64,000 nucleotides of DNA from Streptomyces hyderabadensis (GTDB taxonomy: Bacteria; Actinomycetota; Actinomycetes; Streptomycetales; Streptomycetaceae), in contig NZ_JAIOJZ010000037.1 in NCBI RefSeq assembly GCF_020404845.1, positions 1 through 64,000 on the forward strand, written 5' to 3'. Shown here piece after piece: positions 5,441 through 47,956 of the stretch. Position 1 is the stretch's first letter, and each line of letters begins with the position of its first letter. The position numbers were made by a program, and so were the translations under genes. Under the pieces are notes generated by a model. The model did no database searches. It saw only the letters and a program-made list of their open reading frames with translations, and was not told the DNA's origin.

Positions 5441-5487
5441 AACCGCGGGTGCCGTACATGAGCGTCATGTACGGCACCCGCGGTTTT
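5441..5487. terminator. Bidirectional terminator between rbpA and the fxsA-like gene
   Basis: A perfect 21-bp inverted repeat (arms 5441-5461 and 5465-5485) with a 3-nt GCG loop, followed by a T run on the plus strand and preceded by AA on the minus side. It sits between two convergent genes and can serve both. Confidence 0.93.
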
Positions 5488-13840: not shown

Positions 13841-13877
13841 CGAGGGGGCTCAGACCGGCTCGGTCTGAGCCCCCTCG
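13841..13877. terminator. Bidirectional terminator between chiD and the TetR gene
   Basis: A perfect 17-bp inverted repeat (arms 13841-13857 and 13861-13877) with a 3-nt GCT loop, placed between convergent genes about 25 bp after the chiD stop. Confidence 0.92.
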
Positions 13878-43152: not shown

Positions 43153-43605
43153 TTATGCGGGCGAGCCCGACGAGAAGCGCCGCAGCAGCGGCGAGAGCAC
43201 CAGCACGGACTTGGTGCGCTCCACGAACGGCTCCCCGGCGATCCGCTCCAGCACCCGCTCGAAGTGCCGCATGTCGGAGGCGAAGACCTGGGCGACCGCG
43301 TCCGCGTCCCCGGTGACGGTGGACGCGGCCACGACCTCCTGGTAGCGCTCCAGGCCGCGCTGGATGGTCTCGGGCGAGGTGTTGCGGCGGCAGAAGATCT
43401 CGACGAAGCCCTCGGTCTCCCAGCCGAGCGCGGCGGGGTCGACCCGGACCGTGAAGCCGGTGATGGCTCCGGTGGCGCGCAGCCGGTCCACGCGCCGTTT
43501 CACGGCGGGCGCGGAGAGGCCGACCGACTGCCCGATGTCCGCGTAGGAGCGGCGGGCGTCCTCGGCGAGGGCGTGCACGATGCGTTCGTCGAGATCGTTC
43601 AGCAC
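43153..43605 (-). CDS. Lrp/AsnC-family transcriptional regulator
   Basis: A 150-residue Lrp-type regulator: HTH at about 1-60 (LNDLDERIVHALAEDARRSYADIGQSVGLSAPAVKRRVDRLRATGAITGF) and RAM domain at 65-140 (VRVDPAALGWETEGFVEIFCRRNTSPETI, VTGDADAVAQVFASDMRHFERVLERI). It follows the APC permease gene by 15 bp, so both are on one transcript. It is the natural candidate to bind the CGTTGCG arrays before the permease and nitrilase genes, giving feedback by the imported amino acid. Confidence 0.93.
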   Translation of the reverse strand: MLNDLDERIVHALAEDARRSYADIGQSVGLSAPAVKRRVDRLRATGAITGFTVRVDPAALGWETEGFVEIFCRRNTSPETIQRGLERYQEVVAASTVTGDADAVAQVFASDMRHFERVLERIAGEPFVERTKSVLVLSPLLRRFSSGSPA

Positions 43606-43620
43606 TGCGGGTCGTTCACT

Positions 43621-45111
43621 TCACTTCTGGTGCGTGCGGACCTCGGAGGGGTCCGGTGCGGCGAGTCGGGAGTGGCGTTGGCCGTACACGAAGTAGAACA
43701 CGAGCCCGACGGCCATCCAGACACCGAAGACCACCCAGGTGACGGTGGACAGGCTGCCCATCATCCAGACGCAGAAGCCGAAGCCCAGGGCGGGCAGGAC
43801 CGGCGACAGCGGCACGCGGAAGGTGCGGCGCATGTCGGGACGGGTCCGGCGCAGCACCACGACGGCGACGTTGACCAGGGCGAAGGCGAAGAGGGTGCCG
43901 ATGCTGGTGGCGTCGGCGAGCTGTCCGAGCGGGATGGCGGCGGCCAGCACGCCGCAGAACAGGGAGACGATCAGCGTGTTGGCACGGGGCGCCCCGGTCT
44001 TCGGGTGGACCTTGGAGAACACCTTGGGCACCAGCCCGTCGCGGGACATGGCGAACAGGACGCGGGTCTGGCCGTACAGGACGGTCAGGACGACGCTGGC
44101 GATGGCGACGACCGCGCAGAAGGCCAGCAGGGTGCCCCAGAAGCTCTGCCCGGTGACGTCGGTCATGATCTGCGCGAGGGAGGCCTCGGAGTCGGTGAAG
44201 GTCCGCCAGGGCTTGGCTCCGACGGCGACGGCGGCGACCAGGACGTAGAGCACCGTGACGATGACGAGGGACAGCATGATCGCGCGGGGCAGGTCGCGCT
44301 GGGCGTTCTTGGCCTCCTCACCCGCGGTGGAGGCGGCGTCGAAGCCGATGTACGAGAAGAAGAGCGTCGCACCCGCCGCGCTGACCCCGGCCATGCCGAG
44401 CGGCATGAAGTGCTCGTAGTTGCCGGAGCGGAAGCCCTGCACGCCGATCGCGCAGAACAGCACCAGCGCCGCGATCTTGACGACGACCATGACCGTGTTG
44501 GCGCGGGCGGACTCGCGGGCGCCGCCGAGCAGGAAGGTCATGGCGAGGAGTACGACGATCAGTGCGGGCAGGTTGAAGACGCCGCCGTCGCCGGGCGGTG
44601 CCGACAGGGCCGCGGGGAGGGTGACGCCGATGGTGCCGTCGAGCAGCTCGTTCAGGTACTCGCCCCAGCCGACGGCGACGGCGGCCACGGACACGCCGTA
44701 CTCCAGGACCAGGCACCAGCCGCAGATCCAGGCGATCAGCTCGCCCATCGTGGCGTAGGCGTACGAGTACGAGGATCCGGCGACCGGGATGGTGCCGGCC
44801 AGTTCGGCGTAGGACAGGGCCGAGAAGAGCGCGGTGAGGCCGGCGATGACGAAGGAGAGCGTGACGGCCGGTCCGGCCTTGGGGACGGCCTCGCCGAGCA
44901 CGACGAAGATGCCGGTGCCGAGGGTGGCACCGATGCTGATCATCGTGAGCTGCCAGAGGCCGAGGGAGCGGCGGAGGCTGCCGCCCTCGCCCTGGCCGCC
45001 CTCCGCGACCAGGCGTTCCACGGGCTTGCGGCGCATGAGGCGCGCGGCCGGCCCCGGGGACGTGGGGGTGGCCGATGTGTCGTGGTGCGGGGGTGCGCCT
45101 TGGTCGAGCAC
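43621..45111 (-). CDS. APC-superfamily amino-acid permease
   Basis: A 496-residue amino acid-polyamine-organocation transporter with about 12 hydrophobic segments. The first helix signature LTMISIGATLGTGIFVVLGEAVPKAGPAVTLSFVIAGLTALFSALSYAELAGTIPVAGSSYSYAYATMGE and GFDAASTAGEEAKNAQRDLPRAIMLSL are typical of cationic amino acid transporter (CAT)-like permeases. GTG 45111 is preceded by AAAGGAG at seven bases, so it is chosen over starts further upstream. It precedes lrp in one operon and has four phased boxes 188-266 bp upstream. Confidence 0.93.
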   Translation of the reverse strand: MLDQGAPPHHDTSATPTSPGPAARLMRRKPVERLVAEGGQGEGGSLRRSLGLWQLTMISIGATLGTGIFVVLGEAVPKAGPAVTLSFVIAGLTALFSALSYAELAGTIPVAGSSYSYAYATMGELIAWICGWCLVLEYGVSVAAVAVGWGEYLNELLDGTIGVTLPAALSAPPGDGGVFNLPALIVVLLAMTFLLGGARESARANTVMVVVKIAALVLFCAIGVQGFRSGNYEHFMPLGMAGVSAAGATLFFSYIGFDAASTAGEEAKNAQRDLPRAIMLSLVIVTVLYVLVAAVAVGAKPWRTFTDSEASLAQIMTDVTGQSFWGTLLAFCAVVAIASVVLTVLYGQTRVLFAMSRDGLVPKVFSKVHPKTGAPRANTLIVSLFCGVLAAAIPLGQLADATSIGTLFAFALVNVAVVVLRRTRPDMRRTFRVPLSPVLPALGFGFCVWMMGSLSTVTWVVFGVWMAVGLVFYFVYGQRHSRLAAPDPSEVRTHQK

Positions 45112-45298
45112 GCGTTGACTCCTTTGTCGCTGCCGGTCAGGCCGCCCGGGTGGGCGGACCGGCTCCCGGCGGGCCTGGGGAGCGGCGGGGACCGGCGGGC
45201 GCGCTCGTGCAGAACGGGAACCCACCGAGCGGGGTCCCCGCCACGCCACGTACAGCGCAGAACACTACGAGCGGGGCGGTGCCCCGGTAATGCAGCAA

Positions 45299-45377
45299 CC
45301 TTGCGCGTTCGAGCACGATCGTTGCGTTCCACGGGGCAGCGCGGGTGTTCGTTGCGCGCGGGGTGCGGGGCGTTGCG
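45299..45377. promoter_or_regulatory. Four phased CGTTGCG boxes upstream of the APC permease
   Basis: CCTTGCG (45299-45305, one mismatch), CGTTGCG (45320-45326), CGTTGCG (45350-45356) and CGTTGCG (45371-45377): intervals 21, 30 and 21 bp, all in one orientation. Two are followed by CGCG. The 344-bp gap (45112-45455) holds nothing else gene-like. Lrp-type proteins bind cooperatively to sites in such phase. Confidence 0.65.
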
Positions 45378-45455
45378 CGCGGGGTCGACGGACGGCGGAT
45401 CGGGCCTGGTCAGCGACCGTGCCGGGATCTGGCCCGGCGACCCGGCGGAGACCGG

Positions 45456-45851
45456 TCAGCGATCGTCCGGTTCGCCCGCGACGGCACGTGCCTCGGCCGC
45501 CTCCGCGGTGTCGAAGCCGATCTGTCCGGGCCGGTCGCGGGCCTCTTCCTGGGCGTCGATCCAGCGCGTGTGCGCCTCCCAGGCGGCCTGCTTGCTGGTG
45601 CCGAGCGCCGCCCCGATCTGCGACCAGGAGGCACCCGCCTCGCGGGCGGCGCGGACGGTGAGCTGGCGCCCGTAGGCGGCCTTGCGGGCGACCACCTCGC
45701 TGAGCGCGAGCAGTTCCAGGAGCTGGGGGCGGTCCAGGGCCTCGGCGTCGCTGCCGAATCCGGCGAGGGACTCGCGGGCGCGCAGTTCGTCGAGACGGGC
45801 CACCGCGGTCAGCAGGGTGTGCTCCGGCTCGATGCTCTGGGGTGTCGTCAT
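45456..45851 (-). CDS. Small HTH-containing protein of unknown function
   Basis: A 131-residue helical protein. Its middle part (REAGASWSQIGAALGTSKQAAWEAHTRWID, about 70-100) is a sigma-like or XRE-like helix-turn-helix with a tryptophan-rich recognition helix; similar segments occur in another gene of this window (52883-53434). The first half (TLLTAVARLDELRARESLAGFGSDAEALDRPQLLELLALSEVV) may be a dimerisation helix pair. A 44-bp perfect palindrome begins nine bases upstream of its ATG, suggesting autoregulation. Confidence 0.8.
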   Translation of the reverse strand: MTTPQSIEPEHTLLTAVARLDELRARESLAGFGSDAEALDRPQLLELLALSEVVARKAAYGRQLTVRAAREAGASWSQIGAALGTSKQAAWEAHTRWIDAQEEARDRPGQIGFDTAEAAEARAVAGEPDDR

Positions 45852-45859
45852 ACGCCCAG

Positions 45860-45903
45860 CGTCGCGTCAGGTCTGCTTGACGTCAAGCAGACCTGACGCG
45901 ACG
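45860..45903. promoter_or_regulatory. 44-bp perfect palindrome centred on TTGACGTCAA
   Basis: Every base from 45860 to 45903 pairs with its mirror about the centre between 45881 and 45882 (CTTGACGTCAAG core; outer arms reach CGTCGCGTCAGGTCTG), with no loop. It lies between guaB1 and the small HTH gene, nine bases before the latter's start. It could be an operator for a dimeric or tetrameric protein, or a transcription end for guaB1; there is no T run. Confidence 0.85.
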
Positions 45904-45988: not shown

Positions 45989-47473
<1,485 letters not shown>

Positions 47474-47539: not shown

Positions 47540-47893
47540 TCATCCAGGCTGGTCAGCGGAGTCCTTGGAGGAACCTCCAGGGCCCAGGGTGACGAAGAGT
47601 CCCGGACCGCGGTCGGTGGCCTCGGCGAAGACCTCCTCGGCCACGGCCCACTCGTCGGGCCGCGCCTCGGCGTACGCCCGCCAGCCCTCCACCACGAGGA
47701 CCAGACCCCGGCCGGCCGCTCCCTCGGGCCACACGGAGGGGTCGGCGAGGGAGTCGGCGAGCGCGTCCCAGTTCCGGCCGAACCAGTCGGGCAGCGCCAG
47801 GTCACGGGCGCAGCGGTCCATCAGGCCCGCCTTGTCCGTGACCCCGCCGAGGTCCAGCGTGACCACGAGCCGCCCCGCGGAGTCCTCGGTCAT
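47540..47893 (-). CDS. Barstar-family protein (orphan RNase inhibitor)
   Basis: A 117-residue barstar-like protein. The fold motif GVTDKAGLMDRCARDLALPDWFGRNWDALADSL carries the acidic/aromatic helix that blocks barnase-type RNases, and the final strand region GLVLVVEGW is present. ATG 47893 is preferred over GTG 47902 because of GAAGG spacing. No barnase-like RNase is encoded in this window; the partner may be elsewhere or the protein may bind another target. Neighbours are GuaB1 and a SorC-type regulator, so no toxin operon is visible. Confidence 0.88.
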   Translation of the reverse strand: MTEDSAGRLVVTLDLGGVTDKAGLMDRCARDLALPDWFGRNWDALADSLADPSVWPEGAAGRGLVLVVEGWRAYAEARPDEWAVAEEVFAEATDRGPGLFVTLGPGGSSKDSADQPG

Positions 47894-47956
47894 CTCGCGC
47901 ACCCTTCTTCCCGCTCTTCCGGCTCTTCCGGTCCCGCCCGTGCCGCCGACGGCCCG

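Follow-up and report, generated by a model that had tools for sequence, protein, structure and literature searches.

A 44-bp perfect palindrome in Streptomyces as the proposed tandem operator of a stand-alone HTH protein that probably represses its own gene

A short stretch of Streptomyces hyderabadensis DNA between guaB1 and a small helix-turn-helix (HTH) gene reads the same on both strands over 44 bp, which raises the questions of what it does and why its symmetry is complete. The window, as we call the whole stretch of 64,000 nucleotides that was analyzed, contains this palindrome at 45860-45903, with two arms of 22 bases meeting at the center TTGAC|GTCAA with no loop and no mismatch, as an earlier note on this DNA had described it. 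Among the other perfect loopless palindromes of the window, no arm is longer than 9, and the longest such arm in 60 windows simulated with the same dinucleotide frequencies was 11, so that the palindrome is far beyond chance. The calls of an HTH gene and of guaB1 on its two sides also hold. The HTH gene begins 8 bases, rather than nine, from the palindrome. Two perfect inverted repeats with 3-nt loops occur elsewhere in the window, at 5441-5485 (21 bp) and 13841-13877 (17 bp).

Read on the strand of the HTH gene, the palindrome consists of two abutting 16-bp dyads, GTCAGGTCTGCTTGAC and GTCAAGCAGACCTGAC, with six mirrored bases on each flank. Both dyads are instances of GTCARGNNNNCYTGAC, and the array ends 14 nt upstream of the ATG. 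The half-sites of each dyad, GTCARG and CYTGAC, have their centers 10 bp apart, which is one helical turn, and the centers of the two dyads are 16 bp, or about 1.5 turns, apart. The sequence CTTGACGTCAAG occurs one further time in the 8.18-Mb genome. The elements discussed here are the following:

45860..45903, no strand: 44-bp perfect loopless palindrome seen in the sequence, in which 6 bp flank the two putative operator dyads at either end
45882..45897, minus strand: upstream putative operator dyad (GTCARGNNNNCYTGAC) at -46 to -31 relative to the ATG, overlapping the -35 box at its end
45866..45881, minus strand: downstream putative operator dyad, -30 to -15, within the spacer between the -35 and -10 boxes
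45881..45886, minus strand: predicted -35 box TTGACG, from sequence, conserved in relatives
45858..45863, minus strand: predicted -10 box GACGCT, which reads nAnnCT in relatives, separated by 17 bp from the -35 box and weak compared with TANNNT
45851..45851, minus strand: predicted start of a leaderless mRNA, put at the A of the ATG from the position of the -10 box
45456..45851, minus strand: gene for the 131-aa HTH protein, the proposed autorepressor
45555..45659, minus strand: HTH segment, residues 65-99, homologous to the HTH of ClpC2 and overlapping the stretch that matches RelI
45989..47440, minus strand: guaB1 (GMP reductase), upstream neighbor outside the element; other genes precede the array in many relatives

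The array is closely tied to the HTH gene. Among 392 genomes of the genus, 30 encode a relative of the HTH protein with an E-value below 1e-19 (own genome and fragments counted). The tandem GTCARGNNNNCYTGACGTCARGNNNNCYTGAC was found with at most one mismatch in 27 of the 392, all of them among these 30. One genome has three units, giving 28 sites, every one of which lies at the HTH gene; in G201, where this gene is truncated, the tandem sits at the truncation. A reversed-pattern control gave 0 matches in the same 392 genomes. The three protein-bearing genomes without a tandem at this threshold have a degenerate array (G169), an array with two mismatches (G355), or a fragment of the gene (G193). 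At the class level, the tandem was present in 4 of 296 genomes, again always at the HTH gene, and the protein in 7 (E <= 1e-10). Two of the class-level protein bearers without the tandem carry an array with two mismatches (G606) or one unit plus a half-site (G400); in a third, G523, the protein match is weak and no array was found.

Across loci, conservation was scored over 24 informative positions, after merging 109 loci into 99 distinct ones, of which 97 were scored (two with short upstream DNA were left out, and L030 was excluded from motif work as a fragment). All 24 positions matched in 78 loci and 23 in another 10, so that 88 of 97 scored 23-24, with the best match starting at -46 in 67; the best of 388 control stretches taken further upstream reached 16. 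At the lower end, L023 (whose array is identical to that of L135), L028 and L141 scored only 16-17. The consensus was drawn from Streptomyces, and its independent part consists of the 37 scored loci with other titles, out of 78 scored among the best 80 of 135 loci retained from the named-genome scan (two more again had short upstream DNA). Of these 37, 27 matched all 24 positions and 6 matched 23 (33/37 together), including loci of Actinoplanes, Actinomadura, Streptosporangium, Sphaerisporangium, Microbispora and a Blastococcus MAG (L111), among others. Poor matches in this group were Quadrisphaera L141 (17/24), L122 and L142 (20 each), and L102 (21). Homologs in other genera are about 60% identical and still preceded by the tandem. 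By sequence, then, the motif and the protein form a pair that is conserved over several actinobacterial genera, and the lack of conservation around orthologs of the HTH gene, which the earlier note gave as grounds for refutation, was not observed. Some arrays are longer: L022 and L093 have three units in the same 16-bp register, and others, such as L110 and L128, about two and a half, which identifies the 16-bp dyad as the repeating unit.

Several copies of the HTH gene appear to be decaying, with an altered HTH, a lost N-terminus, an internal deletion, or only a fragment left (L013, L028, L029 and L030, respectively). The array is still present at the first three, and in L028, a truncated copy, it sits intact at the truncation. 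A mobile origin was considered and rejected. No phage record and no viral contig with an exact tandem was found; a relative is present in three plasmid records, at nearly full length in two. On a Streptomyces plasmid (L187, NZ_CP108614.1, 2455-4098), the operator is fully mirrored and the HTH gene shares 4 bp with an epoxide hydrolase gene. A protein cluster whose member in L105 is assigned to the epoxide hydrolases by Pfam is represented within 3 kb in 9 of the 80 retained loci.

The position of the array suggests how it could act. Counted from the ATG, the inner TTGACG occupies -35 to -30, and the hexamer 17 bp past it has A at its second position in 79 of 86 distinct arrays and T at its sixth position, likewise in 79 of 86; T at the first position occurs in just 2 of 86. 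In the window, this hexamer ends six bases upstream of the ATG. A scan for E. coli-type consensus promoters found none at 9 of 12 or better. In Streptomyces coelicolor, 21% of the primary start sites give rise to leaderless mRNAs, with TANNNT as the -10 motif (PMC4895711). We infer that the spacing TTGACG-17 bp-nAnnCT-6 bp-ATG fits a leaderless promoter, whose -35 box and spacer are covered by the array.

Taken together, we consider it likely (probability about 0.87) that the palindrome is a two-dimer operator through which the 131-aa HTH protein represses its own gene. Each 16-bp dyad would take one dimer of the protein, as the half-site centers are one helical turn apart, and the two dimers would sit on roughly opposite faces of the DNA, as the dyad centers are about 1.5 turns apart. 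Because the dyads cover -46 to -15 of the predicted promoter, the bound dimers would exclude RNA polymerase, so that the HTH gene would repress itself until some signal releases it. Binding by this protein, the number of dimers, repression rather than activation, the start site and the inducer are all parts of the proposal that we infer. Of the two functions that had been suggested for the palindrome, the two-dimer operator is strongly supported by the comparison, and the site for cruciform or resolvase-like action is not.

The closest precedent for this system is ClpC2 of mycobacteria. Taylor et al. (2023) present ClpC2 as a self-repressor on the basis of gel shifts and reporter assays; its operator, CGTCAAC-n5-GTTGACG, often occurs twice, lies over the -35 and -10 boxes, and precedes a transcript predicted to be leaderless (PMC10030653). 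The self-repression of ClpC2 governs tolerance to cyclomarin A. Both proteins have an HTH segment of the type GASWxxIGxxxGxSKQAA, and both systems share the half-site core CGTCAA and paired dyads at their own promoter. The leaderless transcript predicted for ClpC2 may have a counterpart here, where spacing and conservation of the promoter elements fit and the consensus scan was negative. Action on the own promoter was shown for ClpC2 and would apply by analogy to the window protein. The two differ in other respects. No Clp_N or ClpC-like domain, which in ClpC2 is C-terminal and senses ligand, was detected in the 131-aa protein, its operator has the form CGTCARG-n4-CYTGACG rather than exactly CGTCAAC-n5-GTTGACG, with half-sites ending in G (GTCAAG or GTCAGG) where those of ClpC2 end in C or T, and its dyads abut with a 16-bp period, whereas those of ClpC2 are 28-29 bp apart. 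No n5 form of the operator was found in the own genome. Since the Clp domain is missing and the spacer is 4 bp rather than 5 bp, the sequence comparison makes the window protein a variant related to ClpC2, not ClpC2 itself.

The relation is confined to the HTH. When the window family was aligned by hhalign with a profile of 18 ClpC2-like N-termini, a probability of 98 and an E-value of 2.6e-13 (for a single comparison) were obtained over 32 columns covering the HTH alone. The ClpC2 operator pattern was present in 27 of 118 class genomes; at 18 of these 27 loci an ORF with the HTH motif starts within 120 bp downstream, mostly 1-2 nt past the nearer dyad, and at 9 there is none. Within Streptomyces, all 10 homologs of 234-235 aa that were taken from 11 weak protein-search matches with such frames (L189-L198) have two CGTCAA-N7-TTGACG dyads directly before the ATG, and the only one scanned by Pfam, L189, has a Clp_N domain (E 4.1e-26). 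One genome, G068, contains both kinds of gene (L009 and L197), each with its distinct operator. Judged by sequence, homologous HTHs are thus paired with a nearly equal half-site in two subfamilies, of which the window family has no Clp domain.

This pairing bears on how ClpC2 reads its operator. The study of ClpC2 ascribes DNA contact to the C-terminal domain, with an R185A/R189A variant binding more weakly, and describes crystallized fragments spanning residues 4-72 and 94-252 (PMC10030653). The part of the shared HTH that holds the recognition helix (SKQAA...) corresponds to ClpC2 residues 73-93, between the two fragments. The comparison suggests that site-specific contact in ClpC2 is made by the shared HTH as the reading head, and not by the C-terminal domain. 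At three loci (L118, L128 and L134), a ClpC-like gene lies downstream of the HTH gene (with Clp_N and AAA domains by Pfam in L134, and of the same cluster in the others), and the genome of L128 appears to hold two near-identical ClpC-like copies. Such a gene is possibly the split counterpart of ClpC2.

The AlphaFold2 model of the 131-aa protein is confident (mean pLDDT 91.8) and helical, with an HTH near residues 76-104, and Pfam gave only a weak match to HTH_23. Sequence profiles tie only the HTH region to solved proteins, namely RelI (E 6.8e-7) and, weakly, Rv2667/ClpC2 (E 0.017). Foldseek against the PDB gave no significant match, with none below an E-value of 3. The top rows of VIA-align were ribosomal protein chains (Z 5.7-6.2), and LuxR/NarL-type HTH domains aligned with residues 58-126 at Z 5.0-5.5; all of these are within the range of common arrangements and were rejected as relatives. 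RelI and ClpC2 were absent from both the Foldseek and VIA-align lists and were found through the sequence profiles.

RelI is likewise a small actinobacterial protein with a related HTH. It is an antitoxin paired with a toxin (RelS-RelI), and according to its authors there is neither evidence that it binds DNA nor a likely inverted repeat upstream (PMC13284704, PDB 9sdc). In contrast, the window gene has a strong candidate operator and no toxin gene beside it, its neighbors being guaB1 and genes for a permease, an AsnC regulator and a barstar-like protein, and no constant partner gene was found in the best 80 of 135 relatives' loci. The barstar-like gene (47540-47902, Pfam PF01337) lies upstream of guaB1. 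The AsnC/Lrp regulator gene (43153-43605) is beside the amino-acid permease gene (43621-45249), upstream of which a cluster of GTTGCG/CGCAAC repeats is found at 45285-45390, with similar sequence near the same place in L007, L015, L016, L021, L022 and L030. This cluster may be an Lrp-type operator.

The strongest competitor of self-repression, which we nevertheless consider improbable, is that a regulator whose gene lies elsewhere binds the array and that the HTH gene is only its target. Co-occurrence with a gene does not name the binder, and another regulator could bind a promoter that travels with the gene. No other tandem was found in the own genome at up to three mismatches, where the full tandem occurs only at 45860-45903, nor in the 27 genus genomes at up to one, which speaks against a regulon. 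Single dyads do occur at three more places in the own genome, one of them within a gene, one at the 3' end of another and one close to a TetR gene; they were considered as a regulon and rejected, since their placement looks like chance. Nor is any neighbor besides the HTH gene common to the loci: of the best 80 of 135, 36 have guaB1 less than 3 kb upstream, and no neighbor family is commoner; the epoxide hydrolase-like family is found in 9, and GGDEF/EAL or P450 genes occur elsewhere. In addition, ClpC2 has a homologous HTH and shares the core of the half-site, and it is the operator of its own gene that it binds (PMC10030653).

Self-repression through two dyads does not by itself require a perfect mirror. 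As the half-sites are symmetric, any tandem of dyads is partly symmetric, while the N4 cores need not mirror each other. Core and array statistics were based on the 94 of 109 loci with a recognizable tandem. Of 71 distinct core pairs, 9 were mirrored where 0.84 would be expected, and 0 of 20000 shuffles reached 9. Symmetry within the units is below expectation (21/142 against 38.5, and 34/142 against 46.3, for the same 71 pairs); the cores are thus less symmetric within a dyad than shuffles predict, and more symmetric between the two dyads. Counted by array, 14 of 86 distinct arrays have mirrored cores and 72 do not. The former come from relatives of the window, L024, and loci of Actinomadura, Sphaerisporangium, Streptosporangium and Microtetraspora; the plasmid locus L187 has mirrored cores as well. 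The longest arms are those of S. coelicoflavus L077 (24), the window (22) and Sphaerisporangium L120 (20). Since most relatives lack mirrored cores, symmetry beyond the half-sites appears not to be needed for function.

In a guaB1 tree of 37 rows, the window falls in a clade of 11 rows (SH-aLRT 99). A first, wider clade set of 15 loci gave an arm covariation of 0.175 against 0.094 +/- 0.012 (0/500 shuffles). Because five of these loci were not in the tree, two of them (L013 and L029) with mirrored cores, the analysis was repeated on 10 of the 11 clade rows (L063, with a 1-bp deletion, was left out), giving 0.162 against 0.094 +/- 0.013 (0/500). In 23 of the 26 other tree rows, which have the same array (shifted L083, triple L093 and degenerate L135 were left out), there was no covariation (0.061 against 0.060, 228/500). 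The covariation and core shuffles ignore relatedness, and the sister set controls for it better. Measures that are least sensitive to relatedness were unexceptional: the number of pairs changed on both sides was reached in 237/500 shuffles for 15 loci and 58/500 for 10, and the pair-type measure in 41/500 and 129/500.

These data also bear on the reading that the palindrome was selected as a hairpin or cruciform, either as a structure-dependent switch or as an RNA hairpin in guaB1 read-through, which we rate as somewhat less probable still than a regulator encoded elsewhere. The covariation of the arms in the window clade, in both locus sets, would agree with it, as would the window DNA hairpin of -27.6 kcal/mol (z -8.5). 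However, the sister loci lack the covariation with the same array, folding of two sister loci gave hardly any structure (z -1.2 and -1.4), and if the start is leaderless, the palindrome is outside its own mRNA. With 72 of 86 distinct arrays having no mirrored cores, the symmetry that a hairpin would require is not conserved, and cruciform action is not supported.

Rather, the perfection of the mirror looks lineage-specific, as the cores covary in the window clade and not in its sister species. Most likely it arose incidentally, when the two arms served as templates for each other through template switching in the lineage of the window. Correction of quasipalindromes by template switching has been described in E. 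coli (PMC7202029) and proposed for RNA hairpins (PMC8794818). As in that process, the arms of an imperfect palindrome would have become more similar through changes on both sides; here, unlike there, this is seen solely by comparing species, not as an observed mutation. Flank symmetry beyond the operator was considered as proof of template switching and rejected, as there was no general excess (p 0.19 and 0.34). Lineage-specific selection is a possible alternative for the mirror.

It is very unlikely that the palindrome serves as the transcription terminator of guaB1. It does lie 85 bp past the guaB1 stop on the same strand; however, there is no T-run after the stem, and the terminator scan was negative. 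In some relatives (e.g., L008), guaB1 is followed by a hairpin of its own ahead of the array, and the array persists where the preceding gene is not guaB1. The sequence evidence therefore does not reduce the palindrome to a guaB1 transcript end. An Rfam search returned nothing. Least credible of all is a recombination, resolvase or chromosome-organization site, for which symmetry alone speaks, while genomes with the array have one, always at the HTH gene and with no second site at the mismatch limits given above, no recombinase is among the six neighboring proteins scanned, and viral contigs lack the exact tandem.

A literature search under SCO1460, which we take to be the locus name, found no paper; a search for TTGACGTCAAG gave nothing relevant, its sole match being unrelated work on human cells. 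None was found for guaB1, GMP reductase and Streptomyces together, and novelty of the operator is therefore not claimed.

An odd palindrome thus becomes a defined operator with a named candidate binder, namely the conserved tandem operator of a stand-alone HTH protein that, judging from the comparison, probably regulates itself. We lean, by a small margin over even odds, toward a broader view in which a single HTH module, which stands by itself here and is joined to a Clp domain in ClpC2, would serve as reading head for self-repressors of a wide actinobacterial family acting on a CGTCA half-site. The last base of the half-site and the n4 or n5 spacer would set specificity, ClpC2 would contact DNA through the HTH, and paired operators would be hot spots of template switching that drift toward perfect palindromes. 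The link to ClpC2 makes the idea of the HTH as reading head testable. The locus also offers a natural case of operator arms that were apparently homogenized by a known mutational process, and it calls for caution, in that a perfect palindrome need not mean a functional structure.
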